Of a stretch of DNA of 64,000 nucleotides, positions 2,502 to 36,781 are shown one piece after another (position 1 is the stretch's first letter; the number at the start of each line of letters is the position of its first letter). Where the stretch lies: the NCBI RefSeq assembly GCF_026210795.1, contig NC_089439.1, positions 3,596,001-3,660,000 on the forward strand, written 5' to 3'. This DNA comes from Rhizophagus irregularis. Lineage: Eukaryota > Glomeromycota > Glomeromycetes > Glomerales > Glomeraceae. Made by a program: the position numbers and the translations under genes. The notes under the pieces are model-generated. The model was not told the DNA's origin. It searched no databases and saw nothing but the letters and a program-made list of their open reading frames with translations.

Positions 2502-4500
2502 TTAAGTTTCTTTTTTGAAAGGGCATTCAGAAGTTTTAGAGGAAACAATCGTGCTATCATCCAATTTTAGTGACAGTTCTTTCACAAGTCCCTGAACGAA
2601 AATGCCTTTTAGTAAGTGACAGTGATCCACTAGGAGAGTTAAAACAATGCAAAAAATAAGGCTTACTCTTATATTCCATGCCCAAGAAAGTGTAAGACGT
2701 AGCTTATCATAAGATGAATATAATAGAAGAAGTTTAAACGACTTCAGGAGATGAAATCGGTATATATCACGCTTTTCCATCATGTATATTCGAATCTCTA
2801 TCATGTATAGCTAATCAAAACAAAAATTCAGTATTCCCATGAAGACCAATTGTATATTGACAAAGGAACTTAAGACTTATCTCACTTGAATTCCGATAGT
2901 ATAAAGATTTGATGAATCTCTACTTACACCTCTAAATTTCTCTAATATATCATCCAATGTATCCTTAAGCATTCTTGGTAGCTGATATTTGTCAGACGTC
3001 CACTTTGTAAGGTCATATTTATGTGGGCCACCACATGCTAGTTCACAAACCACTTCTTGTTGATCAATTTTGCATAATAAATCCGCTAGATAACCTGTTC
3101 AAGACATTCTTTTAATATCTTTTTGTTTTCATTTCGTCTTCAGCAACTGGCGACTACTGTAATTTCTCCCCTAAAAGTTAGATATTTGAGTCTAGGAAAT
3201 GGAAGTAATGAGAAAAATTGAAACTTACTAAGGAACACGACAAAAACTGTTCAATTTTAGGGCACCCTGAAAAATAGGAATGACATATTCTTCAAACTAC
3301 TCTCTTTCCTCACAATCATTTTGTTGAATTAGGTTATATTCAGATTCAAAAGCATCTAGACTAAAAAAGATGGTAAATCATGCATTTAATGAAAGCTAAA
3401 CTTGGCAAAAGAGATTTACAATGTCCCAATAGCATGTTCAACCCAATACAGGATCTTCTTTCAGTCTTCTTCATTGTATGAAAAACCTTCATTATATTCT
3501 GGTACTTTTAAATCCCTTATTTTTACCCATTTATCATGGATCCATGAAGCTTCTATCAAAAACATAAATGTGTCAATATTTGTGGTCAATACTGCTTGAA
3601 TTTTTCAAATGCACTTTACTTAGTCACCTTGCTTCTTAATTTCTCACCAAGAGGCCCAAATAGATGATCACAAATTGATCTAATTTCTTCGTAATATATG
3701 GCATTAACTGCAGGTGCGTGGTCGGTCTGCTATAAGCTCCACCCAAAACTTGGGTTTGAACTTTTTTTCTATCTGTGAACAAGGAGTGAGATCTAAAATA
3801 AGGCTGTGCATAAGACTTCACAAAAATAGTAAGATTTAAAACTATTCAATAAACGTAATCTGTAGTGGATCTATTATCAAGAACAAAGCTTACTCGTATT
3901 TTGACATTGTTGATTTTGCATGATATTTTTCCATTACCGACATTATATGGGATGAAGGCAAGTCATCACCAATCTCAGAAAATAACCGCTTGTGAGTATT
4001 CTTTAATGGTACTAGCTATAGAGGAGAGAGATATTAGTAATTGATTTCAAAATTGAATATTACTTAACTGTTTGACATAAATAATAGGGCTACCACATTT
4101 AGTCTGAACTTGATAACTAAAAAAATCATACTTCGTCCTGATTAACAGTTGCATCGTTAGAATCGTGTTCAGATATAAAAAGCGGATTCTTAGCATTTAT
4201 GATTGTTTCTAAGACTATTATTCTGAGTCACAGAGAAAAAAATTAAATATGTAATGCATAGACGAGTTTGAATAAATTACCATCTTTCGTATCATTTCTA
4301 CCTAATAGGCTAGAATTGGGGAATTCTCTACTATCAACATGGATTCCATCATCCTCAGATCCATCATTGGGTAATTTTTCTTTTTCATCAAAGAATTTCT
4401 CTGAGATCTTAGTAGTAGTTGATCTAGCGTATTGTTGAATTTGCTCTGTTGTAACTGTGGCTATAGTTATGTGCTGAACTGCTTTGTACGGGAAATCACG
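2502..4500 (-). pseudogene. Broken member of a multi-copy, lineage-specific hypothetical gene family
   Basis: On the minus strand one can read in order, with stops, frameshifts and probable introns: STTTKISEKFFDEKEKLPND (about 4430-4370), HIMSVMEKYHAKSTMSKYE (about 3985-3900), FTDRKKVQTQVLGGAYSRPT (about 3780-3715), ASWIHDKWVKIRDLKVPEYN (about 3550-3490), a stretch ending LYWVEHAIGT (about 3430), then VVCELACGGPHKYDLTKW (about 3055-2990), and finally an uninterrupted 100-codon stretch (2804-2502) containing RDIYRFHLLKSFKL. I recognise this order from a repeated hypothetical family in Rhizophagus genomes but recall no name or function. Its tail collides with the polymerase fragment coming from the left. 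Plus-strand ORFs here are antisense shadows. Confidence 0.6.
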
Positions 4501-4539
4501 TCAAGAGTGAATTATTTAGTCTAGCATGTTATATTGTAA

Positions 4540-5036
4540 GTCGTTGAGCTAGATGTGTGTGTCACAGGCTCCACCCACCTCAGCCTCACGGCCTCACAGT
4601 ACCTACTTGGCCCCTATAGGGCTCAGGCATCCCCATATCTGTCACCATCTGTCACTTCCATCTGTTATATAATAATATACTAAAAAAGGATAAAATAAGG
4701 GAAAAGAGAGGAAAATAAGAGAGAATCAGAGGGGTATGACAGATATAACAGATATGACAGATGTTTCAGAAATATTGGAAGAGGATAATCTCCAGAAATA
4801 TTTTTGATTTTACCCCCTAGATCTATCATACTGTTATAAATCTGTCATATGATTAGGATTCAGTCTAATCATCTGTCAGAAGTAGTGAGATAACAAACCA
4901 GGTAGATTAACAGGTAGGTTAGCAGGTAGCTCCTAGAAGGTCTGTAAAACCAGTAAGACTAACTCTGTCCTGCCCGTCAGAAAAAATAGTAATTGAACAA
5001 TAAGTAAACCATAAGTAATATATAAGGATAGGCAAC
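4540..5036. other. Non-coding spacer with ATCTGTCA inverted repeats
   Basis: 4629-4675 carries repeated ATCTGTCA/CATCTGTTAT words; 4735-4770 carries the complementary TGACAGATATAACAGATATG. The two can pair across about 60 bp. Short direct repeats of AGGTAG follow at 4898-4928. It lies just upstream of the helicase/polymerase module and could be an end or control region of it, but no target duplication was found. Confidence 0.35.
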
Positions 5037-5495: not shown

Positions 5496-6238
5496 AAAAG
5501 GGGAAGGGAAGATTTAGAGCAGTCGTAAAGGTTTGTGGTTTATAGTTTTTTTTTACTCCTAGAAGATAACTGGGTAAGATCAGAGGACCACATGACCGCA
5601 GGACCGCAGGACTACAGGACTACAGGAGGGTAACCAGGTAGGAGTGCAGATTTTTGGAAAAAATATTCGGCAATTAAAGATTAGGTAACTATAAATTAGT
5701 ACTCGATTTGATAAAACAAAAAAATGACTGCCCAAACTAGCACTCAAGCTCAAGTTATTCCCAAATTTGGTGAACAAAAGAAGGCCTTCAGTATCGATAA
5801 GCTTAAATGGCTCATTAACGCTGCTAAAAGTATGAGTGTCCTTGATCAAGCTAAACGTTATCTTTGCAGTTACTTTATCCTCTGCTCTAACCCACATGAA
5901 GTCTTTATGTAGCAGTCAGAAATCAAGAATCTCGAACATATCCCTGATAAAAATATTAGTAAACTTATCCGTCCAATTACCAAAGTTTTTTACAAACAAT
6001 CTGAACAAGGTTCCTCACAAAAGGTCAAATTCAATATCAACAAATGGTTTATGATTGAATATAGCACTAGTCAAAATTGGTGCTATTGGGTACATATCAG
6101 ATACCTGATATGTGTATAATATATGTAATATATATGTATGATATTTAACAATACTACACATATCGGGTACCTGATATGTGTAGTATAAATGTAGAAAATC
6201 GGTGACACATCATGTAAATATCATATACACATCTTACA

Positions 6239-6432
6239 TATATCGGGTAGTCAAATATCAGTGACATATCTTATAGATATCATACATTTAACACACACAT
6301 ATCGGGTAGTAAAATATCAGTGACATATCTTATAGATATCATACATTTAACACACACATATCGGGTAGTAAAATATCAGTAATATATATTATAGATATCA
6401 TACATTTAACACACATATATCGGGTAGTAAAA
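6239..6432. repeat. 60-bp subterminal tandem repeat in CACTA-like element 1
   Basis: Three copies starting near 6239, 6299 and 6359, each with ATATCGGGTAGT, ATCAGTGACATATC and TAGATATCATACATTTAACA. Subterminal arrays of short words are typical of CACTA transposase-binding regions. Confidence 0.7.
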
Positions 6433-6474
6433 TATGTAAAATATTGGTAATATATATTTTTATTGTATACGTTT

Positions 6475-7404
6475 GACAATTTCATATTAAAACTAATAGA
6501 TTTATATCTCTTTTTTTTTATTTTAATTTGGGCTAAATGAAATTCAATTTTATTAAAATTTATAAATTTATTTACATAAAAGCAATAATACAAATCTTAC
6601 ACTATCTGCTACGTAAAATCAAATAAAGTTGAACATAATTATACTATGTAATATGTTAAGTTTTACTGAAAGTAGCAATGATAATAAAATTACCTCTTTG
6701 CTTGTTTTGTTATATCTGTTTATTATTTAAAAGAAATATCAGTGAAAATATTAGTAAGTATATTAATTAATAGGAGAAAATAAAATAGAAATGTTAATAA
6801 AAACGTTAGTGGTAAATATAGAAAATATTAGTAAAAATGTTAGTAAAAAGAAAGAAAAGTTAGTAAAATAGAAAATGTTAATAGGAGAATGTTAATAAAA
6901 ACATGTTAGTAGTATTTAATATTAATAGAAAATGTTAAGTGGTAGAAAACATTAGTGAGAGAAAAGAAAAAAAGTATTAGAACGTCAATAGAAAATGTAT
7001 ATATAAAAAGAAAAAAACAAGCATAATGAAAATATACCTTTATGTTTATTTCTAAATATAAAAATAAAAAAAAAATATATTAATATTATTTCATAATAAC
7101 TAAGTAAAAAGTTTGTTTTAAATAAAAAGTTTAAGAGAAAGGGCTTTTACGAAAGAAAAAAAAATAAACAAAGTGCGAAATATAAATACCGAAATCATGT
7201 GATCAATCGCCTAATTACAATAACAAATTCTGATTGGGCCATAGATTTTAACCGGATTATTATAATTAATAAAAAAAATGCATTTATACTATTTATACTA
7301 GAATTACACTGCAAGTTAAACTCTTTATCGCTTTAAATAATACAAAACCCTACTTAAATATACCAATTAGTCACAAATCGGGTACTTATCGGTAGCCTAT
7401 TTGT
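6475..7404. other. AT-rich interior of CACTA-like element 1, no gene seen
   Basis: 6720-7010 is built from repeats of AAAATGTTAGTAAAAA-like words on an A-rich background; the rest is low-complexity AT. No open reading frame worth calling. Confidence 0.4.
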
Positions 7405-7414
7405 CACCTATCAA

Positions 7415-8492
7415 TTAAAGAGCACCGTCGAGTCGAGTCGAGTTATATGTAAACTCGATTCGGCTGAGTTAAATCGAGTCGAGTCGAGTCAAGTTAAAAT
7501 TATAAAAATATAAACTCGACTCGATTCGAGTCAAGTTGGCCCGTCAAACCGAATTGAGTCGAGTCGAATTAAATCACGTGATTTTAATTCGGCTATGCTG
7601 ATCATTTCCTTTTTTTGGCGATAGCCATTCCACAAAATTCCATTTTTGTAATTTTCAAAAATTTTTCGTCTCGGATTTTGTGTAACATAATTTCCAAAAA
7701 AGGAAATTCCATAAATTTGGCCGGAATTATGTTTAATTCGGCTTAACTTGACTTGACTCGACTCGAATCGATTTGATTTGATTGTAATTTTCAACTCGAC
7801 TCGACTCGCGAGTCAACTTGACTCGTTTCGGAGCAACAGGGCGGACATCCCCATATTATCACGATATTGCCGATCATTTTGCCGATCACTTGTCCAATAT
7901 TATCACATTAAAAAATACCGTTGAATTAGTTTTTTCACAAATTCTACATAATAATGTATAAAATTTCGATTTTATTTACTTTATTTTATTTATTGTTAAT
8001 AAATTAGTTCTTAAAATAATTCATAAAGATTTTGTCAAATATCAGACATATATTAATTTTACAATAATTGTAAACATTTATTTAATGATAACTTTTGGGT
8101 TATCAAAAATTATCCAGGTTTATTTTAGCCATTGATTCTTGAATACCTAAATAATATACTGTAAAAGTTTCAAGTTTCGCCCGAAGATCTGTGGCTTCGC
8201 CCGAAGCTTCAAAGTCACGTTAGCAGATGATCGGCATATATATAGCATATATATTAATTATTGAAAATTTGACGTAAAATCTAACTTTGGAAACACACCT
8301 TATTTTGCCACAATACTTTTATATTAATTTATTGATAAATGAAACTATTAAATAAAATAATTTAACATAAATTGTCAGAACATTTATTGCTTGGAATAAA
8401 GCTTCAAATTTAACGTGATATCACTTATATCATGATCGGCAAGTGATCGACATTGTGATATAATGCATATCCGCCCTGTTTTTCGGAGTACT
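7415..8492. mobile_element. MULE-like MITE rich in GAGTC words, 9-bp duplication
   Basis: The ends are imperfect inverted repeats (left AGCACCGTCGAGTCGAGTCG; right complement AGTACTCCGAAACGAGTC) with long runs of GAGTC/GACTC. The flanks are ACCTATCAA (7406-7414) and ACCTATCAT (8493-8501), a 9-bp duplication with one change, as made by Mutator-like transposases. It is split near its right end by a second element and is related to 51292-52248. Confidence 0.7.
7835..8480. mobile_element. MITE with AACAGGGCGG ends, 9-bp duplication
   Basis: Ends AACAGGGCGGACATCC and its complement AACAGGGCGGATATGC, with further matching arms (GCCGATCACTTG on both sides). Flanked by TTTCGGAGC (7826-7834) and TTTCGGAGT (8481-8489). 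It is nested inside the right terminal repeat of the 7415-8492 element. The interior is AT-rich without ORFs. Confidence 0.8.
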
Positions 8493-8569
8493 ACCTATCA
8501 TGCATACCAGTCAACATGGTAAATCACTGATTTTTCGTAATATCAAATAATAAATATTTATTTAGAAAC

Positions 8570-9310
8570 TCCAAGAACCTACAAAAGAAAAAAAAAAGTA
8601 ATGTTACTAAGGAAAAAAAATAAACGTGAAACTCCTCCTTCCCCATTTACCTTTCACTAAAGTCCGGTTTGTATAATTCGTCTGGCGTTCCTACAATAAA
8701 AGAAAAAAATGTAACGTTAGTAATGTTACTAAAAGAAGTAAATTTCTCTCCCATTAATACCTTCACTCAAAAGTCTGGTTCGTAATTTCGTCCAGCTTTC
8801 CTACAAAAAAAAGAAAGAAACATTAGAAACGTTTCTTATTTAACATACATGACACACTACACCCACCCAACTTACATCAAGTGTAAGTCCGCCTTCTAAG
8901 AGTCTGGTGTCCTAGTCCTACAAAAAAACAAAGAAAGAAACGTTAGTACGTTTCTTTAATATTCAAAAACCAATTCCCCTCCCCTATTCCTAACATTATC
9001 CAAGTCCAGATTCGTTTTCAAGAGTCCGGCGTCCTAGCCCTACAAAAAAATAAAGAAAGAAACGTAAGTATGTTTCTTTACATAATATTAAAAAAACATT
9101 TTCCCCTCTTCCCATTCCTTACATTATCCAAGTCCGGGTTCATTTCCAAGAGTCTGGTGTCCTAGTTCTACAAAAAAAAAGAAAGAAACGTTAAAAACGT
9201 TTCTTAATTACAGTAAAACACATAACCCCAGTCTCCTTCTCCCACATTACCTTTATTGGTTCGACGGTTCGTCCTGGTCTTCAAGGTCCGGCGTTCTACA
9301 AAAAATAGGA
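8570..9310 (-). repeat. Array of about 6 intron-like hairpin units and micro-exons (minus strand)
   Basis: Read on the minus strand, each unit of about 110-125 bp has a GTAAG-like donor, a palindrome AAGAAACGTACTAACGTTTC or a variant, a T-tract, and TTTTTTGTAG. TACTAAC is exact at 8942-8948 (complement GTTAGTA). Sequences left between acceptor and next donor are about 45-50 nt and share CTAGGACACCAGACTCTTGG. The array faces outward towards the left end of CACTA-like element 1. The splice-signal order is read directly; actual splicing is inferred. Confidence 0.7.
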
Positions 9311-9315
9311 GTCCC

Positions 9316-9851
9316 ACAGGTTGAAAAGTGAAAAATCAGGCACCAATCGGTCACCAATCAGGTAGCTAATTGGTGACTGATTGGTGACTGATTGGTGCCT
9401 GATTGGCATTTTTGCCAAATACCGTCACCAATCAGGCAGTTTGCTAACCTTTGATCCAGTGATCAGAAAAAGATGAAATATAGCTCATTGGAATTGTCTC
9501 AACAAGACAAATCTAATGGTAGTAAAATCGCATTTCTAGGATTAATACTTGATGAGAAATTAAGTAAAATATAAAAATGAAAATGTATCATTTATATTTT
9601 ATTTAATTTTTTATTAACTATTAATCCTAGAGATGCGATTTTACTACCATTAGATTCGTCTTGTTGAGACGATTCCAATGAGCTATATTTGATCTTTTTC
9701 TGATCACTGGATTAAAAGTTAGCAAACTGCCTGATTGGTGACGGTATTTGGCAAAAATGCCTATCAGGTACCAATCGGTCACCAATCAGGTACCTGATTG
9801 GTGACCGATTGGTGCCTGATTGATGCCTGATTTTTCACTTTTCGACCTGTG
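9316..9851. mobile_element. CACAG-ended foldback (CACTA-like MITE), TCC duplication
   Basis: A nearly perfect 536-bp palindrome. It starts CACAGGTTGAAAAGTGAAAA and ends with the complement CACAGGTCGAAAAGTGAAAA, flanked by TCC at 9313-9315 and 9852-9854. The arms contain ATTGGTGACYGATTGGTGCC words; the middle carries the GATTCGTCTTGTTGAGACGA core seen in other elements. Confidence 0.85.
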
Positions 9852-9899
9852 TCCGACCTACAAAAAAAAAATAAAAAATGAAATATTTTTTTTTTAAGT

Positions 9900-10190
9900 A
9901 TTGATTTTTATTAGATTATCAATGATCAATAAATGATTGGATTCTAACCAAAACTTCACGTGATTTTGCAAAACCCTAGTTTCGGCAAGCAATCCTAGAT
10001 CGGATATTACACAGATGACTAGATTGACCGGATTGATCAGATAATCTGGTCAAATCCTATTTTTTTTTATTTTTTTTTAAAAAAAAATATTTTTTATTCT
10101 CCTTCGGTCTTCCCCTTCAGAATTCGGCTTAAATGGCTTAGGACGTTCGTTTTTCTAAGGGAACACCTTCCTGGAACTGGATTTCGGCTT
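9900..10190. promoter_or_regulatory. Possible divergent promoter between two intron-unit arrays
   Basis: This 300-bp stretch separates the left-facing array (ending about 9310, plus the inserted foldback) from the right-facing one (from 10195). It holds TTCACGTGATTTT at 9956, the E-box-like word that also precedes the BTB gene. A plus-strand first exon would end GGCTTGAAG at 10194 before a GTAAGT donor. Inferred from position only. Confidence 0.3.
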
Positions 10191-10194
10191 GAAG

Positions 10195-11045
10195 GTAAGT
10201 TAGGAGGAGGGGATTTCGTTTCTTTTTTGTTTTTATTTATTTATTTATTTTTCTAACGTTTCTCTTTATTCTTTTTTGTAGACTTTGGCTTCTTGGATTA
10301 TTTGGGATATTGGGTAAGTGTATGGGGTGGGTTTTTTTGGAATTTACTTTGAAGAAACGTACTAACGTTTCTTTTTTTATTCTTTTTTGTAGATTTTGTC
10401 TTCTCAGGTTTTTTGTAAGTGTGTGGGGTGGGTGTTTTCGAAATTTACTTTGAAGAAACGTACTAACGTTTTTTTTTTTATTCTTTATTGTAGATTTCGG
10501 CTTCTTGGATTATTTGGGATATTGGGTAAATGTGTGGGAATTCTTTCGGAATTTACTTTGAAGAAACGTACTAACGTTTCTTTTATTCTTTTTTTGTAGA
10601 TTTCGTCTTTCCAGGTTCTTTGTAAGTGTGTGGGGGTGGGTTTTTTCAGAATTTATTTTGAAGAAACGTACTAACATTTCTTTTTTTATTCTTTTTTGTA
10701 GATTTTGTCTTCCCGGGTTCTTTGTAAGTGTGTGACGGTGGGTTTTTTTGGAATTTACTTTGAAGAAACGTACTAACGTTTCTTTTTTTATTCTTTACAA
10801 TTGTAGATTTCGGATTCTTGGATTATTTGGGATATTGGATAAGTGTGTGAGGGTGGGTTCTTTTGGAATTTACTTTGAAGAAATGTACTAACGTTTCTTT
10901 TTTTATTCTTTTTTGTAGATTTTGGCTTCCTGGATTATTTGGGATATTGGGTAAATGTGTAGGGAGTTTCAGAATTTACTTTGAAGAAACATACTAATGT
11001 TTCTTTTTTATTGGGATATGGGTAGTGTGTGGGGTGGGTTTACTT
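10195..11045 (+). repeat. Array of 8 intron-like units separated by 22- or 32-nt micro-exons (plus strand)
   Basis: Donors GTAAGT/GTAAAT and acceptors TTTTTGTAG delimit micro-exons at 10282-10313, 10393-10414, 10494-10525, 10600-10621, 10702-10723, 10807-10838 and 10919-10950, that is 32, 22, 32, 22, 22, 32 and 32 nt. Each intron-like block is about 70-90 bp and holds GAAACGTACTAACGTTTC: the branch-point word TACTAAC sits in the middle of a palindrome (exact at 10461, 10569, 10771, 10886). One donor is mutated (ATAAGT at 10839). The 32-nt exons read ATTTCGGCTTCTTGGATTAT and on; the 22-nt ones ATTTTGTCTTCCCGGGTTCT and on. No long frame results. Confidence 0.75.
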
Positions 11046-12489
11046 TAAACAAACATAATAATTTTATTTTGGTTCAAATTAATAAATAATTTCATATTAC
11101 TATATAATAAACTATAAACTAATGAATATATTATGGCTTGAATTAAAATCCGAAAAAAAAAATTCGGTATAATAATAAAAAAATTATCGGATTGAACAGA
11201 TTCAATCCCAATTTTCTGATGAATTTCGGGGCATACCTATACCGTACTGTAGGTCATATATATGACATACTATGCCGAAACATTTCACTTTTCACCGATA
11301 TATAGATGCCTGATATATAATTGATAGCATAGATTTTGACCAGTATGTATCGGTGATATATTTGGTACCCGATGTGTACCCGATATATGTAACTGCCCGA
11401 TATATATCCGATTTATTACCGATATATAGGTGCCCGATATATACCCGATAGCATAGATTTTGACCAGTGTAGTACTGTATGTGTAGTTACCTGTGACTCT
11501 CAAAAATCCTATATCTTTAAGCTAGATGGCCAACTTTATCTCAATATCTTCCCAGGATTTCTCCATATCCTGCGTCCAATTTTCACCTTTGAGTCTATAA
11601 TCCATCAGGTGGTTAAATATCTTCTCTCATGTTCAGGATATCTGGTGTTCGGGTGATTGGAATCTCACTGAGTATATCATCAAGTGGTTAGCCGGTGTAT
11701 CTGCTAGAAGGAAAATGTACTCGATTTTCTACTTGAAATCCGGACAGGGTTGGGGTAAGAGTATTACAACAGATTTCATTCAACGTAGCGTCTTAGGTAC
11801 TCAACTCGTTTATAAGATTAGCGATTCTCAGACAATTCTTGGAAGTTTTAATAGGCAGTTACAGGTTAAGGTTCTTCTTCTTCTCGAGGAAATGTCCACA
11901 GAAAAAACACTGGTCGAATGAAGGGCTACCGGGTAAATTTCATATACCCGATAGCCCTATTATATGTTTTCGATTTTAACCTGAATGGCAGCTGATCGAT
12001 CCACCCGATTTGTGACCGGTTCTCGGCGCAGATCAGGTATAAGTCATGTGACTTTCAGGTTAGAACATAACGGTAAAGTGCTATATGAATATCGGGAGAA
12101 TTTCAGCAATCCGATATTTCTCCGAACTATTTATAATATTAGATGTATATTTGCTACATCGAAACCCGAAACTTATTATTTATTCATTTATATATACTAT
12201 ATATTATTCATTTATTTATTTATTTAACATAATAACATATATATATATTTATTTTATTATTATATTTTTAAAAATTATATTCGTTAATTTATCCTATTCT
12301 ATCTATCTACATTATGTTGTTAATGGTTTGGAATATTATTCCAGTTGGTTCGATTCCAACAAACAACTATTTTTCCCAAAGTTTTTATGCCAACTCTTCC
12401 GAACTATTGCCTACTAATACCAAACGAATTAAGCAGAAGATGGATATTAGATTGTGGTGGATTAGGTTGATTTTGACTTGGTAAAATTG

Positions 12490-14960
12490 TGAGTGAAATA
12501 TTATTTCGTTCTCTATAAAAAAAAAAGAACGTTTAGTAAACGTTCTTAACGAAAAAATATTAAAAAAAATAAGTTCTGGTACCTTGTGTCAATTTCATCT
12601 TGAGCGAATTACCTACAAGAAAACGAAAAAAGTAACGTTAAAAATGTTACAAAAAAAAATAGAAAAACCCTTCTATTTACCTTTCGTCCAAAGTCCAGTT
12701 CGTAATCTTGTCTGGCGTTCCTACTAAAAAAGAAAGAAACGTTAGTACGTTTCTTTAAAACAATTAAACACCATACACCGCATTATCCCATATACCTAAG
12801 TCCAGGTTCTCCCAAATTCCTAGGAGTCCGGTAATCTAAAAAAACAAAAAAAGAAACGTTAATACGTTTCTTTAACATAATTAAACACCAACGCTATACA
12901 CTTCCCCATATACTTTACCGGGTTCTTCCAAATTCCTAGGAGTCCGGTAACCTAAAAAAATGAAAAAAAGAAACGTTAATACGTTTCTTTAATACAATTA
13001 ATGCCATACACTCCTCCCATATATTTTACCGGATTCTTCCAAGTCCGGTAACCTAAGAAAATGAAAAAAGAAACGTTAGTACGTTTCTTTAACACAATCA
13101 AACGTCATACGCCACCCATATATTATACCGAGACTTCCAAGTTCCTAGGAGTCCGGTAACCTAAAAAAATTGAAAAAAAGAATGTTGATACGTTTCTTTA
13201 ACAGCCCCCATATATCTAAATCCGATTTATTGAAAAAAAATATTTAGTTTCGACAAAAAAACTTACCGAATTTAAATACCGAGCTCAACAAATCCTACAA
13301 AAAAAAAGAAAAAGAAACGTTAAAACGTTTCTTAATAAAAAAATAAAGTTTCGTAACGATTTTCGTTACGAAACTTACCATTTCGACCTTAGAGTACCAG
13401 AGCGGCGGAGCCTACAGATTCTACAAAAAAAAAATAATAAGAACGTTAGAAACGTTCTTTGAAAAATAAAAAAAATATTGAAAGTTTGAAACTTACCCTC
13501 TCTTAGGCCTTAGCATCCCAGTCCGGTATAAAAGTCGAAGGGACCTACAAAAATAAATAAAGAAACATTAGTAACGTTTCTTTAAAAAAAAAAATAAAAA
13601 AAAAGAATCGAAGTTTCAAAACGAAACTTCGAAACCTAACCGAAATCCAATATCCAGAGAGTATCTACAAAAAAAAGAAGAAACGTTAATATAACGTTTC
13701 TTACAAAAAAAAGAATAAAAAAAAAAGATTGTTTCGCAACGTTTAAACTTACCGTTTCGAAACACCGAGCCGAACACTTGAACCTACAAAAAAGAGAGAA
13801 ACGTTAATATAACGTTTCTCAAAGAAAAAATTTTTTTAAGTTTCGTAACGTAACTAAACGTCACGAAACTCACCGTCATTTCGAATTTCACAAGGCCGAA
13901 ATACTTGAACCTACAAAAAAAAGAGAGAAACGTTAATATAACGTTTCTTACAAAAAAAATAAATAAAAAATAAGTTTCGCGTTGTGAAACTTACCATTCG
14001 AGGTTTGCCATTTCGAAGCTCCCCACTTGAACCTACAAAAAAAAAGAGAGAAACGTCAGAATAACGTTTCTCAAACTCTCAAAGAAAAAAAAATTGTAAG
14101 TTTCGCAACGCGTTGCGAAACTTACCGTTCGTTTCGTTGAAAAATGAAAAAAGATATTTCGAAGTATACTTGAAGTATATCTTCGAAATGTCGAATTTAA
14201 TTTCGTCCGTCTAAGGAGCCGCCCAAAAGAAACCGAACTTAAAAAGAAAAAAAAACGAAACGTTAATAAACGTTTCGTTGAAAAAAAACAAAAAAAAAAT
14301 ATATTTCGAAGTATACTTCAAGTATACCTTCGAAATGTCGAGTAAGGAGCCGCCCAAAGAAGTCGAACCTAAAAAAGCAAAAAAAACGAAGCGTTAATAA
14401 ACGTTTCGTTGAAAAAAAAAACCCAAAAAGAAAGACATTTTGAAGTATATATACCTTCAAAATGTCTTATTGATTTCCGTCCGTCCAAGAAGCCAAGAAG
14501 CCGCCCAAAGAAGCCGAACCTAAAAGAAAAAAGAAACGAAACGTTAATAAACGTTTCGTTAGTCGAAAAAACAAAAAAATAATTATTTCGAAGTATACTC
14601 GAAGTATACCTTCGAAATATCAAGTTCCGTCTCCAAGGAGCTGCCCAGCCGAACCTAAAAAAGCAAAAAAAACGAAGCGTTAATAAACGTTTCGCTAGTC
14701 GAAAAAATAAAAAAATAAATTATTTCGAAGAAGTATACCTTCGAAATGTCGAATTCCGAACCTATACCTTCGGCGTTCTGGACCTAAAAAATAAAAAAGA
14801 ATATTAGTGCTAACGTTCATTAAAACAAATAAAAAAAATTTTTTGCTTACTCCGGAAGACTGGAACTAATTTAGATACCGGTATATGTCTTCGGCTTCCT
14901 TAAAGTCTCCAAGAGTCCGGCGTTTCCTTCAAAAGAAAAGAAGTCCGGAGACTACTAAAG
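12490..14960 (-). repeat. Longest array, about 18 intron-like hairpin units and micro-exons (minus strand)
   Basis: In plus orientation each unit shows CCTACAAAAAAA (acceptor complement), GAAACGTTAATACGTTTC (branch palindrome) and AAACTTACC (donor complement). From about 13.3 to 14.15 kb the donor is followed by its own palindrome, so GTAAGTTTCG pairs with CGAAACTT. Exact TACTAAC on the minus strand occurs at 12741-12747 and 13075-13081; other units have TTAAC variants. Exon-like segments share GTCCGGTAACCTA or CCGAACCT words and run about 25-50 nt. Between 14.15 and 14.75 kb the second hairpin changes to ATTTCGAAGTATACTTC. Confidence 0.7.
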
Positions 14961-15430
14961 TGAAACTTTTTAATCCGTTTCTGCATGTTGCAGATTATAT
15001 TCCGAACGTTGGACGAGCTTGCCAGAAGTTAGAAATTTGATTTCGAGTTAAATATTTGGTTCTTCAAAAGGTGTGATAAAAATTTATTTATTTAAAGTAT
15101 TGTAAGAAAAAAGTTAAAAAAAAATTAACTTTAAAGTGTAAAAAAAAAAGTTTATCAATTAAAAAAAAGATCGAAGATTTTTGTGGGAATAGAAATAATT
15201 ACATGCCGTAAATTATTCCAATGACCTATCAGACTACTGATAGGTATAATAAAATTTTCTGATATTTTAATGATATGTCTTTAAAAAATCAGATTTTTTT
15301 CATAAAATATTATTAAACATTTCGGATTACCGATACTTGTAAATGTTTAATATTGCCTATCATGCCATATCGGGTTTCTGATTATTTCCTGATATTTGAC
15401 CAATACGTTATTACCCGATATTTCATCATT
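14960..15430. other. Right subterminal part of CACTA-like element 2
   Basis: AT-rich DNA with GCCTATCA, TACCCGATAT and related words towards the end. No gene seen. Confidence 0.4.
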
Positions 15431-17744
15431 TGACCAGTGAAAGCTAGTGGAATAATCTGTATCGATCGTTGAAGGATAAGGTAACAGGCGATATAATGGA
15501 AATCCATGAAAAATATAAGACGCCAACATATTACAAAAACTTTATATTCACCATTGTCCTCACCAATGAAAATGCTCTCAGAATGGAAAATGATGATAGA
15601 CGCACAGTTTTCTTGGATGTATCACCATCCCGCAAGAAAGACCTGGAATATTTCAAAAAACTTGGTAATACAATGAAATATCCGGGTGTTAGTGAGGCGT
15701 TCTATGCATACTTAAGAGCCATTGCAGATGCTTATCCAGACTTCAATGGGAATCCACTATCTATGATAACATCTAAGCAGGATCACATCATATCGACTCT
15801 CCCACCTCTATTTCAATTCATAAAGGACACATACCTCATAGTAAAATCATATAATCAACTTACCTGTACAAGATTTTTATAGGGTATATGCTTTATACTG
15901 TGAAATTCATTGCATTTCACTCTTATTAAAGATAAACGCTTCTAGAATCCTATTAAATAAGTTGAGTATAAATAGTAATCAGACTTATGTAAATAAAAAG
16001 TTAACTCGAGTATATAGTATATCCAGAGAGGATCTTTACAAGAAATACCTCAGCAAAAACTGGATACATGAAACAGATGAAATCAATATAGAGGGAATTG
16101 ATATAGAGACTCCTAAGAAATTCGCATCTGACCTTAAAGCCTTGGAGAATTTCTTGGTAAATATATATAATCCAGCTAATAAGTCACAAGTACAGGAGAA
16201 ATCTGCTGAGGAAAAATCCGCACCTGTTATCGAAGAGCAATCAGTTGCTAAAAAGACTCCTCCACCAGTACCATCTAAACCTGATTATTTGAAGGTAAAA
16301 CCCGCACCTATCATTGATAAAAACCATATTTCTGAGGAATCTCCAGCTCCCATAGAGTCAGACACTGATGAAATTATAGACAGTTTCTCAGACTGTTATT
16401 TATCTGACAAGGAACCTGAACAAGAAGATGGGCTGCCTGCTGAGGAACCTGCACTTGAAGCTGTTGATGACTATGACATCTTAGATGACTTGCTATCTGA
16501 CTCAGATCCTATAATCACGAACCCAGCTCATGAACAACAACCCAAATCTCCTACATCTGTCACTAAATCTGATCCAGAACTAATTCCTAAAGAGCAATCT
16601 ATCCCAGAACCTGACACAGAACCAGAAATTGACTTGAATCCTGAACTAAAGGAAGGTACTCAAGTACACTGGGTTTGGCAAGAAAGACGCCGATGGGATC
16701 ATAAGTCATAGGTTAAGAATTCAAAGGACCAGGTCTTCAATGATTTTTACAATACAAGTAAGGAATTATGGGCTAAGTACCAAAACACATCAGACGAGTA
16801 TGATTGGGATATACTTGTGTTTGAGATAGAGGAATGTCCCACAGCACATGTTGAGAATGAGTACCAGTACTACCTTAGGGAAGTAGTAAATCGTTTCAAG
16901 GACTGGACCGAATAATGGGGACTTACCTAAAGCACCCAGTCAGGGCCTGGAAAATGCTTATATATGTAAGTACTGAGTCCGTTACCGGCATAGAAAAATT
17001 TTATGATGTAAGAATTTTATAATGCTTAATTTTGAGAAAATTTTATACTATGTAAGATAATTAAATTGCATATTTTTGGTATTATTTTAAAATACTAAGA
17101 GTTTCTAGTTGCTTATTTTTCATATTTATAGAACTTTTTAAATTATTATATATTGAATTTACAGTGGCAGCCAAATGTTATGCATCACCTGAAAAAAAAA
17201 TTAAAAATTTAGATATCTCATGATCTAAAAGTGATTGATGGCTAAAACTTAGAATTCTAAAATTAAAAAATTCAGGCTACCTATATGCAAAATTTAGTGT
17301 TAATTGATTGGCTAATTTATTAGTTACATGGCAATATGGCATTTAATCAAAAAGCTCTGATGCATTTCTTTTGATCGTTATGAAATTCTTGAAAAATCTA
17401 AAATTTTACGAGTTATTGATATTTTTTATGGTAAATTAAATGACAAATTAGGTAATAAACAGCTTAAATTACTAAATAGGTTAAAAAAAAGTCAATAATT
17501 CTTAATTAATTTATTTAGATAATATATTTGATAATTACTACTATGTTAATAAATATATTATAAAATTAATAGCAATATTATTATAAATATCCTAAAAAAA
17601 AAGTTTTTATTCATTTTCTTAATGGAAGAAATTATTTCAAAAAAAAAAAATTTTGTGCGATCTTATTCGTAAATATGAAATGTGATTTGGTAATGATCAT
17701 CATTTTACATAAATTCTATATATAGAAATAATATTTCATCATTA

Positions 17745-25029: not shown

Positions 25030-26665
25030 GGTGAAAACCTACAAAAAAGAAAGTAAAAAAGAAATGTTAGTTAACGTTTCTTTTAATAAAAAAAATAAAA
25101 AATTAAGTTTCACAATGTAACATTGTGAAACTTACCGGTCGTTTCCATCATTCTAACGTTCAGAATCTATAAAAAGTAAAAAAGAAACGTTAAATAATGT
25201 TTCTTTTAAAAAAAAAAGAATAAAAATTAAGTTTCGCAATGTAACATTGCGAAACTTACCAGTCGTTTCCATCATTCTAACGTCCGGAACCTACAAAAAG
25301 TAAAAAAAAAACGTTAGGTAATGTTTCTTTTAAAAAAAAAGAATAAAAATTAAGTTTCGCAATATAACATTGCGAAACTTACCAGTCGTTTCCATCATTT
25401 TAACGTCTGGAACCTACAAAAAGTAAAAAAGAAACGTTAGGTAATGTTTCTTTTTAAAAAAAAGAATAAAAATTAAGTTTCGCAATGTAACATTGTGAAA
25501 CTTACCAGTCGTTTCCATCATTCTAACGTCCGGAACCTACAAAAAGTAAAAAGAAACGTTGGGTAATGTTTCTTTTAAAAAAAAAGAATAAAAAATAAGT
25601 TTCGCAATGTAACATTGCGAAACTTACCGGTCATTTCCATCATTCTAACGTATGGAACCTACAAATATTAAAAGAAAGAAACATTTAGTATCGTTTCTTT
25701 AAAAAAAAATAATTAAAAAAATAAGTTTCGCAATACAATATTGCGAAACTCACCGGTTCGTTTTGATTTCTATCATCCAAATGTCCGGAACCTACAAAAA
25801 GTAAAAGAAACGTACGTTAGTATCTTTTCTTTAAAAAAAAACATAATTAAAATTAAGTTTCGCAACAATTGTTGCAAAACTTACCAGTTCATTTCGAGTT
25901 TCAAATGTTCAGAACCTACAAAAAAAAGAAAGAAACGTTAGTTAACGTTTCTTTTAATAAAAAAAATTAATAAATTAAGTTTTGCAACGATTCATTGCGA
26001 AACTCACCAGTTTGTTTCATCCAAACGTCCAGAACTTACAAAAAGAAGGAAAGAAATGTTAGTTAACGTTTCTTTTAATAAAAAAAAAAATTTTAAAAAA
26101 AGAAAATATTACCTTCCTCCCAAAGTCCGGGTCATAATTTCGTCTGGCATTCCTACAAAAAGAAGAAAGGAAACGTTAGAAACGTTTCCTAAAAGGAATT
26201 AAAAAAAAAGTAAGTTTCGAACACGAAACTTACCATTTCACTTTCCGAAGTTGAAGACCTACACAAAAGAAAAATAGGAAACGTTAGAAACGTTTCCTTA
26301 CAAAAAAGAATTAAAAAAAAATTTTTTAAAAAAAAAGTTTCGAAACGAATGCTTCGAAACTTACCATTTTCGTTTCCTTGTTTCCTAAGTCAAAAATACC
26401 GAAAGACCTAAAAAAAAATAAAGGATCGTTAAAAAAACGATCCTTATAAAAAGTAAAAAAAAAAATTTATTTTAAAGTTTCAAAGCGAAACGCTTCGAAA
26501 CTTACCATAATTTCAGTTTGTTTCCCAAAGTCAAAACATCGAAAATCCTACAAAAAAGAAAGAAAGGAAACGTTAGAAATGTTTCCTTACAACAAAGAAT
26601 TAAAAAAAAATTTAAATTTAAAAAGTTTCGAAGCATTTCGCTTCAAAACTTACCATTGTTTTTCT
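25030..26665 (-). repeat. Array of 13 intron-like units with hairpin donors (minus strand)
   Basis: Plus-strand reading repeats CCTACAAAAAG (acceptor complement), GAAACGTTAGGTAATGTTTC-like branch palindrome, then a perfect hairpin AAGTTTCGCAATGTAACATT running into GCGAAACTTACC. On the transcript strand the donor GTAAGTTTCG is therefore the 5' arm of a stem-loop. Period about 122 bp in the first seven units. Micro-exons are about 30-45 nt; one is 25260-25290 (31 nt, GTTCCGGACGTTAGAATG on the minus strand). Thirteen donor complements (CTTACC or CTCACC) can be counted. Confidence 0.75.
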
Positions 26666-26960
26666 GAAAGACGGTTCTGGGAAGGAGAAAGGGAATGGGG
26701 AAGGAGTGGGAGAAAAAAGGGAAGGGGGAAGGGCGGAGGAAGAGGAAGGGGAGAAGAGGAGAGAAAGAGGGAAGGTGAAGGTAAAAGAAAGAGGGAAGGG
26801 GAAGGCGAGAGAAAAAAAGAGGGAAGGGGAAGGATAAAAGAAAGAGGGAAGGGGAAGGTGAGAGAAAGAAGAAAAGGGAAGGTAAAAGAAAGAGGGAAGG
26901 GGAAGGTGAGAAAAAGAGAGAAGGGGAAGGGTGAAAGAAAGAAGAGGTAAAGGCCGTGAG
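26666..26960. repeat. GA-rich minisatellite
   Basis: Units of GAAAGAGGGAAGGGGAAGGT repeat with small changes. A plus-strand frame through it (Arg/Glu/Lys/Gly repeats) is a composition artefact. On the minus strand it is a CT-rich leader just upstream of the intron-unit array. Confidence 0.7.
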
Positions 26961-28450: not shown

Positions 28451-31400
28451 TCAACCTGTGTAATCGAAAAATATAATATAAAACTAAATGTTGGAGTTGA
28501 TGGAGATCTCACTACGAATAAAACTTTGGGTTTATTAAATATTGTAAATCAAATCTTTGCTGACTTAAAACATAAAGCCAAGTTAGTACGATCAAAAATA
28601 GGTAATTAGTTGAAAACTTCATTTGTTAAACTTTAATAATATGAAACAAGTATTTACTATTTTTTTTATAGCATCTGATCGAAATTGGAAGCATCTTGAA
28701 CAGCAAATAATGAAATACTATACACGATGTGTTTATGCTACAGCTAGTAGAGCTAACAATCCAGATATATCAACTCCAACAGACGCTGAATTAGCATGAA
28801 TGCATACTGTTGGAATAGTATAACATTTGCGAGGTGACCATGAAAAATGCTGGCCTGAAGTGTGTTGGATTGTTGAAAATCCAGATCTTATACTACCAAC
28901 CCCCAATTTAGTTGATGTAAATAAAGACCAATGTTTACGTTTAGTGGAGTTTCTCAAAAGGATTACCAAATTGAAAGATGATCAAAGTTTAATAACTACT
29001 ATACGTACTAGTTATAATGAAGCTTTTAATCGTTTAAAATTAAATTATACAGAAAAAAAAACTGATTATCCCAAGTCATTCAAAGCACGTCATGCACTTT
29101 CTGTTATTCATAACAACAATGGTTTTGTAGATCTTTAACGCCAACTTCGTAAAGCAGAAGATTTGCCACAATTTTCTCTGCAAGATGAAAACAATTTATT
29201 GAAAATATGGAAACACTGAGATCAAAAAAGAAAAAGTAATATAATGGCAATTGAAAAAAGAAACCAAACAAAAGCAGAAAAAATTATTAATCAAAAAAAA
29301 AATTTAGAAACTTTTGATTTTACACAGGTAAAATATTATTATCAATTATTTATAATTTAAAATTATTTGATATATACTTTCAATTTTTCTAGGATTTAGT
29401 TCCATACGGACGACAAGTTTATAAAGAAATAAACAAAAGCAAATTTATACCATCATTTGCCAATTTAGTTCCGTCGTTTAAAACTTCATGTTTGAAATGT
29501 ATTGGGTATCAATCTTTCGCCAAAAAATATTCAAGTGGTTTATGTAACTTATGTGGGTTTTTGCTGAAAAATAATTTGCCAAGTTCTTTACCAAAATTAC
29601 GAAATCAACAAGCATCAAGTTCATCTTCATGTAGAGAATTAGCTATATCGTCTATTGTTCAATTTTTTGGATTTGAAAGATATAGAGAACTTCAATGCGA
29701 AAGTATAGAATCATTTTTATCTGAACAAAATACTTTGACTATACTAAGAACTGGCAGAGGAAAAAGTTTAATCTATGCAGCAGCAAGTATACTTTCTCAA
29801 GCATTAACAGTAGTTTTTACACCTCAAAAGTCGCTGATGGATAATCAAGTAGTAATAACAATATAATACTATATACTTTACAACAAATAGATATTACTAA
29901 ATTATTTTTTAATAATATATTAGCGTGAAATGGTTAAATTTGGCATACCAGCTGCTATGCTATATGTATCATCAGAACAATCACCACAAGTACAAGAAAA
30001 AATTGTTTCTGAAATTGCTTCAGGGTTGATTTGGATTTTATTCATAACCCCAGAAAAATACGTCAAAAATCTAAAGTTTCAGAATATGCTACAAAATATA
30101 TCTGAGGTCTACAGTTCGTAATTGATGAAACCCATTGCATTATTGGTTATGAAGGATTTCAGTAAGTAAAAAATGTTAAAAAATGTTACATTTATTATTT
30201 TAAATCATAAATATATAATCACCATTATTTTATAATAGAGATTCATGGCATCAGCTAAAATGTATCAAACAAGATTTTCCCTCTGTTCCTTTACTTGCAT
30301 TAACAGCTACATGTTCACCTGAAGATGCAGCTAAAATTGAGACAGTCTTAAAAAGACCAAACATGAAAGTTATTAGAAGTCCTATAATTCATCGTTAGGA
30401 TATTGCATTGGAAGTTCAACCAAAACCAATAGGGAAAAAAAAACTTTACCAGGCAGTGTTTAATCTTTTAGATAATCATGAAGGACGAGTAATTATATTT
30501 TCTGCTACCATTCAACATTGTATTGATATTACTGATGAATTGCGAAAAGCATTTGACCCTTCTATTGTAGCTATGTATCATGGAAAGATGTCTAGTTCAG
30601 AACAAACTGCTACCTCTAATGCATGAAAAAATGGAATAATTAAAATAATGTCAGCAACATCTGCATTTGGAATGGGAATAAATGTATCCGATATTACTTT
30701 AATAATACATACCACTTTACCTTTATCAAATGAACAATATGTACAAGAAATTGGACGTGCTGGTTGTTTAGGTCAAGGATCAAAAGCCATAATGTTCTAT
30801 TCACGTGAAGACATCCGTACTTTATTAGCAATTATTGGTGGAGGACAGGAAAAGTAAGTAAATCCAGATAATAGATAAATTAATAATTGTGTATCATAAT
30901 ACTAAAAAAATATTAGTTTGTCAAATCATGAGGAAATGCATCATTTATCAGATACCAACGTGACCCTAAATATAAAAAAGAGAAAAATTATGTTAATGGC
31001 ATTGTATGCAGATTCCATTTATGAATGCCGTCAGCAACTTACATACCAATCGTTCCAATGGTTATATGATCCTCCAATTTTACAATGTATGATTTGTGAT
31101 AATTGTTTGCGCCAAGAAAAGGATACACCTTCAATATATGATGCACAGTCTGAAGCTGTGCGAATGATACAAATAGTTATGCTTTTATTACAGCATATAA
31201 GAGACCCCCAAAATAACATGCATTATATTACACGAGAAGACATAATCAATGTTTTCTATAATAACAAAAATAACAATGTCAACCAAAAAAATTTGAATAA
31301 ATTATCTTTATATTCAGAAGCTCGAATTCAAACTAGGTTACGGCCACAAAAAGTTGGTATGTACCTGCTTGATTGGTTAATTACCGAGAAATTATATACC

Positions 31401-31767
31401 AATTTATTGAACTACGACGGTTATGTTCAGATTCCTCAATATTGACTTATATATGTAGAATAGAAGGAGTTAATGAAAATGCCGAAGATTTGATTTTAGC
31501 AAAAAATTGGAATTTGTATATAAAATAATAAAGAACAAAATTTTCGTAAAGCAAAATTATAAATATTTTATTTAAATTAATAATTATTTTTTATCGAAAC
31601 GTTAAATTTTTTATAAAAAAAATAATTATTTTCTATTGGTAACTCTAATTAGTTCTATTTTTAAATGGGTTACATGATCATCAGTTTGTCGATCACTGAG
31701 TCAACTAAATATCAACAAAAAGACCCTACCCTTAAGTGTAGGAGTTCCAGCAAATGATCCTTTTAAC

Positions 31768-34288: not shown

Positions 34289-36781
34289 CAGTTAAACCTC
34301 GATATACTGAACTTCCGGTTCAGGGATAAAAGTTCGGTATATGGAAGGTGTTCGGTAAATCAAATTTTTTTTATATACTGAACTCTATAGGTAAACAATA
34401 AAAAGTTCGGTATATCGAAAATCATGTGATTTTTCATATAATATTCACGGTATAAAGATTGTTGAACTTTATTATGTAAAAAAAATACATTGATATAAAA
34501 TGTCCAAAAAATTATATTACTAATAAAATGTAAATGTTTCATATTATATTACTAATAAAATGTAAATGTTTCATATTATATTACTAATAAAATGTAAAAT
34601 GTTCATATTATATTACTAATAAATGTTCAAAAAAAAAATTATATTATCAATTAATTATAATATTAAGTCACGCACGATCCATCATATGTTTAACCAACTG
34701 TCTAATACCGATTGAACTCTACTATTTTTATTGAAACGAATAATTTGTTTTTTAAGATTATATAATATATTTCTGTTATTGAAGCTCCATAATAAAAGTA
34801 TCAGGTGGATTATCGAAAAGATAATACTTTGTCCAATGATGCTAATGCTTCTGAAGTGGATATTTTGGGTTGTAGAATTAATTCTTCTTCTTCAAGATCT
34901 GTTTCATTTGGTTTTACCATATTTACAATTTCTTCATCTGTAATTTCTTCTCCCCCATAATTATTATCATCATCAATTAAGATAAATTCCCTGGCACTCA
35001 TTAATCCACCAGAAATAAAATTACTATATTGATCCAATAATTTTTGGATCTCTTCTATTTCATTCAGGCCATCATCATTTTGTTCTTCATCGGAAGGTGA
35101 AGGTAAAGGTGAAGGTGAAGGTGAAGGTGAAGGTGAAGGTGAAGGTGAAGGCGAAATCGGCAAAATTCCAGTTTTTGACTAACAATTACGAATAGTTTCA
35201 CTTGTTACAGCTTCCCAAGCTTTTGCACAAAGTGAAATAGAGTCACTTATCTTCAATTTAGGAACTGGTATATTTAACTCCATTTCATTATCATAAGCCT
35301 CAATTCTATCTTTTATGAGTCTTTTACGATATTGTGCCTAAGATTAATAAATTATTAGAATATGTGCTATTAATTTTATAATCTAATTTATAATAAATAA
35401 TATACAAACCTTGAATGAATTAATAATGCCAGCGTCAGCAGGTTGCAGATGCGCTGTAGTATTGGGAGGCAAATAATGGATTGTAATATTTGTCAATAAC
35501 TCCGGATTACTAACAGAATGAACTGGTGCATTGTAGAGAAGGATCTTTCTATTTCGCCTTTTCATTCTTTGATTTAAAAGTTCTAAATATTTATTCCAAA
35601 TAGACGTTTGCATCCAGGCACTTTTATTCCAATAATAATCCACAGGGAGCTTTGATTTATCAATTCCTTTTAAATCTCTTGGCGTTTGATGCTTATGAAT
35701 GAAAAGTGCTGGAAGTTTAATAGAACCAGTTGCATTAAATGTTAATAAAAGTGTAACTCTGTTTTTCGATTTTTTTGTTCCGGAAAGAGGACCAGTAGAT
35801 AACGTTTTAGAAGGTTCTAACTCCCAATACAATCCTAATTAAATAAAATATTTTTATAATTTAAAATTATATTTATCATAATTATTCTTTAAAATTTAAG
35901 TTATATAAAAATTTTACCAGTTTCATCACAGTTAAACACGTCTTCAAGATCAAAGTTACTAATTAATTCCTGTAACTTTTCTCTTTCTTTGGATAATTCT
36001 TCTTCACTTGGTCCACTTTGAGCCTCACCATGTTTATTATATTGCTTAATATTGTGCCTTTTTTTAAAATTATTCAACCATCCTGCTGACCCAATAAAAC
36101 CTTCAATATTCATTAATTTCGCAAAATCAGCAGCTTTGGTTGTAATAATTTCTCCCGTTATAGTTTTATTAGCTGATATAGCATTTGAGATCCAAATTGC
36201 CAAAGCTTCTTCTAGTTCAGGAAATTTTGGTGATTTTTCTTTTTGTTTAGCTGTGTTAAAACTATTAAGTTCCATATTTAACCATTTGTCTTTATTTTTT
36301 AAAATGTCACAAACTGTATTTTTTTTTACACCGAATTTTTTCCCTATTTCTTCCTGTGATAATGATGGATTTTCTTGATGAAGCAAACATAATTCTTTCT
36401 TTTCTCCAAAGGTTAGAACTTTTCTTTTTTTTAACGTTGCTTCATTATTTACATTTTTTCTTTTTTGCTTCATAGCGCGGTAAAAAAAAAATCCGAACAA
36501 TTGATCAAATTGTTTAATTATAATCTACTGACGTGCCGATTTTGTGATTTTGTAACACCGATTTTACTAATCACGTGATCAGTTCGATAAATCGAAATTT
36601 TTTTTATTATGTTTTATTATAAACGGTTACTCAATAAAAATTCGGTATACATTATATAAAATTTTATATGATATTCGGTATATCGAAATTTTTTTAAATA
36701 TTATGAACCTGGTTCTTGAAAAAATGTTCGGTAAGTCAAGAGTTCGTTATATCATGGGTTCGTTATATCAAGGTCAGACTG
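34289..36781 (-). mobile_element. Tigger/pogo transposon, TA-flanked
   Basis: Ends CAGTTAAACCTCGATATACT and complement CAGTCTGACCTTGATATAAC between TA at 34287-34288 and 36782-36783. Subterminal GTTCGGTATAT words are repeated at both ends. About 2.5 kb with a single minus-strand transposase gene, the usual size and plan for this family. Confidence 0.9.
34810..36500 (-). pseudogene. Tigger/pogo DDE transposase, inactive
   Basis: Three exons: 36500-35918, 35834-35411 and 35337-34810. The likely start is the internal MKQKRKN near 36473. Residues after it form a pogo/CENP-B-type helix-turn-helix (LTFGEKKELCLLHQENPSLS, GKKFGVKKNTVCDIL), then a Tc5/CENP-B DNA-binding segment (GSAGWLNNFKKRHNI). The DDE core has NCDETG (first Asp, exon 1/2 border), PALFIHKHQTPRDL, and YLPPNTTAHLQPADAGIINS (third Asp). 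The position of the second Asp reads ILLYNAPVHS, with Tyr in place of the expected Asp. Exon 3 has a TAG after TIRNC where Trp is expected, then a six-base repeat giving (SP)n near 35096-35152 and an acidic tail. Catalytic loss and the stop make it dead. Confidence 0.9.

Follow-up and report, generated by a model that had tools for sequence, protein, structure and literature searches.

Families of related spliceosomal introns have been described as introners (PMC9860276) and as symmetrical stwintrons (PMC8469720). In the excerpts of these papers used here, such introns are often structured or carry inverted repeats, and many families show signs of DNA transposition. Introners, according to the same excerpts, occur one by one in genes, and it is the introner itself that moves; a target duplication or an inverted repeat is present at the intron ends in many, not all, of their families. 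The schistosome micro-exon genes (MEGs) have many very short exons, which an excerpt of PMC10526429 gives as coding and mostly multiples of three in length, with long introns. Non-autonomous transposons of the hAT and CACTA (En/Spm) kinds have terminal inverted repeats and generate 8-bp or 3-bp duplications. The host genes of snoRNAs combine exons without coding sense with structured introns.

The DNA analysed here, referred to as the window, is a 64-kb stretch of the genome of Rhizophagus irregularis (positions 3596001-3660000 of contig C11). At position 10195 it carries a chain of intron-like units separated by micro-exons. On balance, the comparisons reported below suggest that this array probably belongs to a genome-wide class of mostly non-coding predicted transcription units that are borne by transposons and have been kept spliceable by long-term selection.

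The array at 10195 and the elements that carry such chains

The array and its carrier comprise the following features. Loci fetched from elsewhere in the genome are given L numbers.

6065..11469, no strand: CACTA-ended element of 5.4 kb carrying the 'A' and 'B' chains, with ends CACTAGTCAAAAT...ATTTTGACCAGTG and the 3-bp duplication TAG/TAG
9998..10194, plus strand: region common to the 5' subterminal part of the hAT-ended elements, holding exon 0 and a pyrimidine-rich stretch just 5' of the chain
10195..10918, plus strand: chain of seven complete intron-like units ('B' array), each having its donor, branch-point word and acceptor in that order
10282..10950, plus strand: seven micro-exons between and after the introns, of 32, 22, 32, 22, 22, 32 and 32 nt
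10352..10373, plus strand: branch-point hairpin of one unit, AAGAAACG-TACTAA-CGTTTCTT; later units have similar hairpins that are partly decayed
10951..11012, plus strand: truncated eighth unit with GTAAAT and TACTAAT, without the acceptor TTTTTTGTAG
11228..11239, plus strand: degraded hAT-like right end GGGGCATACCTA, resembling GGAGCATACCTCTA of L022/L029 without matching it in full

The seven plus-strand blocks of the 'B' array are located at 10195-10281, 10314-10392, 10415-10493, 10526-10599, 10622-10701, 10724-10806 and 10839-10918. The branch-point word is exactly TACTAAC in six of them and CTAAC in block 1. Five donors read GTAAGT, the others being GTAAAT in block 4 and ATAAGT in block 7 (at 10839), and the final ten bases of the acceptor are exactly TTTTTTGTAG in five blocks, with TTTATTGTAG in block 3 and ACAATTGTAG in block 6. 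An earlier reading of this DNA from its sequence only (the sequence-only reading) had counted eight blocks with all three signals; seven are indeed complete, ordered and on the plus strand, but the eighth is truncated and some of the words are inexact. It had also noticed that the segments left between the introns are exactly 22 or 32 nt long and belong to two sequence classes, and this is true of all seven exons.

For the 9998-10194 region, query part 157-257 recurs at 20 other places; ahead of the exon-0 part there is little else, and several of these places adjoin TAGAGGTGTGCTC ends. Strongly pyrimidine-rich tracts were seen by eye directly upstream of the first exon in several chains (26690-26947, L066, L073), and they may be promoter marks of the chains.

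That the array lies inside a transposon, as had been supposed from its sequence, is supported by the element ends and the target duplications. Two other copies of the 6065-11469 element are flanked by AAG/AAG (L027+L002) and TTA/TTA (L028+L010), and its central region is present in eight further copies of 87-97% identity, one of them partial. The 10195 array appears to be hAT-derived and to be riding now inside the 5.4-kb CACTA-ended element. The simplest history would be that an hAT-type element entered a CACTA-type element, and that the CACTA-type element then multiplied. Between the two chains of the element there is a foldback insertion of about 535 bp (9317-9851), a long inverted repeat with ends near CACAGGTTGAAAAGTGAAAAATCAGGC, which is missing in copies L002, L003, L010 and L026. 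The copy on contig C9 (L010, L028) lies next to or in the same 50-bp palindromic satellite that forms a tandem repeat at 37918-38853 of the window.

Both hAT-type ends, TAGAGGTGTGCTCYGG ... GAGCATACCTCTA, were found in 12 of the 27 loci examined. The 8-bp duplication is exact in six of these (L021, L022, L024, L029, L035 and L042), differs at one position in another three (L031, L056 and L057) and is missing from the remaining three (L041, L043 and L059). Ten of the 12 elements contain a chain of at least four units according to the finder described below; the exceptions, L031 and L035, have no run of four, though they carry 4 and 6 unit words. Relative to the ends, GTAAG lies on one strand in all 12 (6-21 occurrences against 0-2), whereas the acceptor words of L031 are even on both strands (4 against 4). 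Units of the 10195 type are also present in the hAT-ended elements L029, L031 and L035. L031, otherwise an element of the chain type, also has open frames of unassigned nature, the longest 185 aa, perhaps a nested insertion. The search for an autonomous hAT element with both a transposase and a chain gave none: the 35-aa remnant seen in L022 has no Pfam match, and hAT dimerisation matches (150 scored of 836 candidates) were set against the chains by a glance on contigs C1 and C2. The carriers are presumed to be hAT and CACTA elements from their ends and the lengths of their duplications.

Chains of intron-like units in the window and in the genome

The chain finder calls runs of four or more introns separated by exons of 15-80 nt; its words and exon bounds limit the chains that can be detected. 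Three versions were used: the first gave 223 introns in 34 chains, the second missed the 10195 array and the third was adjusted afterwards. The controls (reversed and shuffled sequences, gene loci and arbitrary regions) were rerun with the third version. In the window the finder detects 42 intron-like units in five chains, against none in the reversed window and none in five shuffled windows. The 'B' array is the sole plus-strand chain, the other four being on the minus strand. The word statistics also depart from chance. TACTAAC is present 24 times in the 64-kb window, with 9.2 expected, and none of 100 shuffles reaches 24. There are six strict three-word blocks (five in the 'B' array and one on the minus strand), compared with 0.005 per shuffled window (200 base shuffles). 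The remaining chains of the window and the second carrier are as follows.

8801..9250, minus strand: chain 'A', four units by the finder, divergent from the 10195 chain; the same arrangement is present in L002 and L003
11908..15439, no strand: second CACTA-ended element, with ends CACTGGTCGAATG...CATTTGACCAGTG and the 3-bp duplication AAA/AAA, weak, in a run of A
12613..14125, minus strand: chain of 13 hairpin introns by the finder, of several sequence families by eye, in the second CACTA-ended element
14211..14850, minus strand: chain of five hairpin introns by the finder, directly upstream of the 12613-14125 chain in the same element
25039..26653, minus strand: chain of 13 hairpin introns by the finder, several with a second hairpin right behind the donor

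CACTR ends and a 3-bp target duplication are present in both window elements, the AAA/AAA duplication being weak. The 11908-15439 element consists largely of 18 units in two adjoining minus-strand chains, of several families by eye, and has two copies that are 98-99% identical over the compared part (L001, L020). No element ends stood out among the inverted repeats around the 25039-26653 chain (25 of 133 pairs inspected).

Several other features of the window were recorded. A similar short palindromic end, TTGGAATCGAACCAACTGGAA...TTCCAA, was seen by eye after chains of different families (12310-12370, L004 and L006). A plus-strand frame (11500-16711) that may be interrupted by the chain-bearing element 11908-15439 includes a DUF5906-like domain (15448-15882), whose score falls just short of the curated cut-off. 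Further away there are pieces of RecQ-like helicase (29393-31445, plus strand; DEAD and RecQ zinc-binding domains, both just under their cut-offs), transposase pieces with CENP-B_N, HTH_Tnp_Tc5 and DDE_1 domains (35383-36524, minus strand), which we take to be pogo/Tigger-like, and a BTB-domain gene (39622-40458, plus strand).

The genome searched amounts to 146.7 Mb in 32 contigs. A search for donor, TACTAAC and acceptor, of the kind that the sequence-only reading had proposed, gave 247 matches to the strict pattern, against two for the reversed pattern. The stem class AAACG ... CGTTT ... TTTTNTAG gave 1240 matches against 40 reversed, and the counts for another pattern were 197 and 0. In the window and 60 fetched loci, most of them fetched because they carry such words, the finder detects 468 units in 63 chains, and none in the same DNA reversed; the gene controls and random regions were kept apart from this set. 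A chain was found in 47 of the 60 loci and none in the other 13, including L062 and L019. There are no chains by the finder in nine TCP-1 gene loci or in 12 arbitrary 5-kb regions, one of which contains one degraded two-unit stretch. Median lengths in the chains are 39 nt for micro-exons (within the 15-80 nt bounds of the finder) and 79 nt for introns. Since the pattern AAACG ... CGTTT ... TTTTNTAG, with its 1240 genome matches, is matched by only 113 of the 468 units (14 of the 42 in the window), a rough extrapolation suggests a genome total of about 4000-5000 units.

Structure of the units, their genomic context and their recent change

The best fold of the whole intron 10314-10392 has an energy of -16 kcal/mol (z -2.8) and includes the 10352-10373 hairpin. 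Among seven chain introns that were folded, z ranges from -2.8 to -6.9, and the branch-point hairpin is part of the best fold in six; the exception, 10622-10701, has a damaged stem and a best fold without this hairpin. A hairpin score of at least 14 is reached by 164 of 223 chain introns, from loci mostly chosen by the GAAACG stem, but by only 5 of 223 shuffled introns and 2 of 26 ordinary introns. The ordinary introns, predicted in TCP-1 genes, are a crude set: frame and splice words served to position them between Pfam exon hits, the scores of several are low, four gaps yielded none, and the 26 used have lengths of 55-145. None of them contains TACTAAC and two contain GTAAGT. A second hairpin directly behind the donor, with a score of at least 18, was found in 22 of 434 distinct introns, in none of 434 shuffled and in none of the 26 ordinary introns.

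A set of hits collected without regard to the stem was also analysed. Around the branch-point word, 24 of these 49 hits score at least 12, compared with 7.0 per cent of shuffled arms, and the other 25 score below 12. Arms pair better with their own partner (4.37 of 6) than with permuted partners (3.84 of 6, sd 0.10; 0 of 5000 permutations), although the rows are partly related and this is not a strict probability. An earlier cross-family stem test was weaker, with 5.45 of 7 for own and 4.70 of 7 for cross pairing at loci mostly picked by the GAAACG stem. Such co-variation of the hairpin arms fits long-term selection at the level of RNA.

The palindromes could instead act at the level of DNA, as transposase-binding or cruciform repeats, the intron-like appearance being a by-product. 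AAACGG-type repeats close to the ends of elements are binding sites of the Ac transposase, and AAACG palindromes ahead of an acceptor are frequent in this genome (1240 places). However, the palindromes keep to one strand and to one place relative to donor and acceptor. Their stem words vary widely, and pairing holds not only in GAAACG but in GAAAAG, GAACT, GGATCG and GGAACGG. The same plan is found in hAT- and CACTA-ended elements, and a role in DNA binding leaves the donor and the poly-T acceptor unexplained. We consider this explanation very improbable.

The sequence-only reading had suggested, as one possibility, that the element spreads intron-like units. Such units would resemble introners, mobile introns inserting into genes and into each other, and the chains do offer many related, structured introns; introners themselves often look like products of DNA transposition, in the excerpt of PMC9860276 used here. 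Ten isolated hits were fetched from the list of 1240 matches blind to their context. Six are in a chain of at least four units by the finder (L060 and L063-L067) and three in shorter or degraded chains recognized by eye (L061, L068 and L069); L062 is alone. Eight of the ten have no sense frame of 90 codons, and the frames of the other two, L062 (111 codons) and L066 (125 codons), have no Pfam match. Single insertions of the introner type in host genes were not seen, with 0 of 10 hits in a gene shown by frame or Pfam, in what is a small sample. The units lie in chains inside larger elements, the 26 ordinary introns are of another kind and lack the features of the chain introns, and in 9 of the 12 hAT-ended elements target duplications are present around the element as a whole. 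The idea that introns spread into ordinary genes finds no support, there being no sign of it in this small sample, and of all the explanations considered here an introner-like one seems to us the most improbable.

Recent change was followed in five copies of the array region, the window counted among them, with 92-96% identity to the window; L011 and L038 span only the part from 10254 on, and L026 (89.8%) and L003 (87.4%) were left out because of their low identity. There are 131 changes, of which 90 are C>T or G>A. Changed cells number 3 of 180 in donors, 9 of 230 in the branch-point core, 13 of 323 in the stem and 1 of 350 in acceptors, compared with 41 of 1416 in the rest of the introns, 51 of 917 in micro-exons and 13 of 1245 in the flank, mostly the 3' flank. 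When A/T sites are matched, the branch-point core has 4 of 165 cells changed, a higher share than the 3 of 933 in the rest of the introns. The recent copies are thus under no visible selection at donor or branch point, since the change rates of both are no better than that of the flank; only the acceptor is nearly unchanged. The claim that the splice signals are preserved better than anything else in the element is not supported by this comparison. The proposal that the element is shaped by selection for splicing is supported in part: the co-varying hairpin arms fit long-term selection on RNA, whereas the recent copies show no protection of donor and branch point. Per-position conservation over 140 and 56 aligned units was set aside as circular, the units having been gathered by their splice words.

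The main rival explanation is that the chains are amplified arrays without present function. Introns of an old transposon or host gene would have been caught in non-autonomous elements, multiplied and carried along, with nothing now selecting for their splicing, although they may still splice by accident. The lack of protection of donor and branch point in the five copies and the dominance of C>T/G>A decay agree with such an origin, as do the damaged donors and the truncated last unit, and similarity between tandem units of one family is expected from unequal exchange. It accounts less well for seemingly unrelated chains that keep the same word order and a hairpin with compensating arms, or for hundreds of units in which donor, branch point and acceptor have all stayed in place. 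Without selection at some stage it would also be hard to keep long chains of several families within one element (12613-14850). We regard functionless amplification as rather unlikely. The case for selection is made because seemingly unrelated families share order, strand, spacing and a compensated hairpin.

Coding potential, possible role and relation to known systems

The lengths of the micro-exons ignore the reading frame: among 382 distinct exons, 130, 141 and 111 leave a remainder of 0, 1 and 2, respectively, on division by three. Sizes peak at 22, 32 and 42/43 nt, about ten apart, with few families behind the peaks. Joined end to end, the seven 'B' array exons are free of stops in whichever of the three frames they are read, and their openness is uninformative on coding for that very reason. 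With exon 0 included, the window array is open for 96 codons in one frame, and the internal chain is open in one frame for 130 codons in L016, 94 in L007 and 65 in L009 (39-nt exons). The open frames of the window array, L016 and L007 neither prove nor exclude coding, as judged from sequence. Chains of the 42/43/32-nt type (L021, L023, L024, L039, L040, L042 and L044) contain 3-15 stops in every frame.

These data bear on the idea that the chains are protein-coding micro-exon genes, similar to schistosome MEGs or to repeat effectors, in which alternative splicing would produce variable repeat proteins. R. irregularis does have SP7-like effectors with repeats, as an excerpt of PMC11333574 reports, and the stop-free 'B' exons and the open internal chains of L016, L007 and L009 could be read in the same sense. 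However, openness in all three frames at once is uninformative, lengths spread evenly over the three remainders and chains interrupted by stops in every frame are not expected of coding exons, and the chains lie in elements in which no transposase was seen. Coding micro-exon genes are in our view improbable. A direct link to the SP7 effectors was rejected: the SP7-like repeats, in the same excerpt, are protein repeats, and no tie to the chains was found. A snoRNA host gene was likewise rejected as a candidate, no Rfam family, snoRNA or other, reaching its gathering score in the window and 20 loci.

We return to the preferred reading, a mostly non-coding unit kept spliceable over the long term. 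The anatomy of the chains is firm at the level of sequence, and from it we infer transcription, splicing and benefit. Transcription of the element would begin in its 5' subterminal region, and every short intron would be recognized as a unit by intron definition, which is usual for fungi. The hairpin might present the branch point to the spliceosome and bring it closer to the splice sites, which would allow many short introns to be removed in succession. Units would multiply inside the element by unequal exchange or slippage, and transposition would then spread them.

The likeliest advantage would be the element's own. A well-spliced transcript that looks intron-rich may be exported, and it may evade silencing triggered by poor splicing of transposon RNA; R. 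irregularis has a large RNAi machinery. It is possible, although we would not call it probable, that the chains define a new kind of selfish element. DNA transposons from two or more superfamilies would carry tandem hairpin introns and micro-exons as cargo, and their transcript would mimic an intron-rich host gene and thereby be expressed, exported or spared by splicing-sensing silencing.

If the chains are spliced, their transcripts would be among the most intron-dense of the genome and would come from elements without evident protein, and splicing itself would be the trait under selection. The genome would then offer thousands of natural variants with which to ask whether RNA structure at the branch point aids fungal splicing. 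It would also allow a test, in one symbiotic fungus, of whether transposons use good introns against silencing. In the open literature no title or abstract on intron chains as transposon cargo was found, and nothing joining 'Rhizophagus irregularis' with 'micro-exons' in that spelling, while the words 'introner' and 'Rhizophagus' occur together in PMC6142364; most subscription papers were outside this scope.

Among the known systems, the chains share with introners and symmetrical stwintrons the existence of related, often structured families of spliceosomal introns, but here the units are in tandem within a larger element, with micro-exons between them, and no insertion into a host gene was seen in the small sample. 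With the schistosome micro-exon genes they share the many very short exons; they differ in exon lengths that ignore the frame (130 of 382 are multiples of three), in their short introns and in their transposon carrier. They resemble snoRNA host genes in having predicted non-coding exons and structured introns, and differ from them in the lack of an Rfam match at gathering score in the window and 20 loci. The carriers themselves fit known kinds of transposon by their ends: like non-autonomous hAT and CACTA elements they have terminal inverted repeats, the corresponding duplications and no transposase seen, whereas their interior is largely a chain of intron-like units. The chain itself appears to be a new structural class, its defining features being shared by none of the known families considered, with the comparison to introners resting on a small sample.
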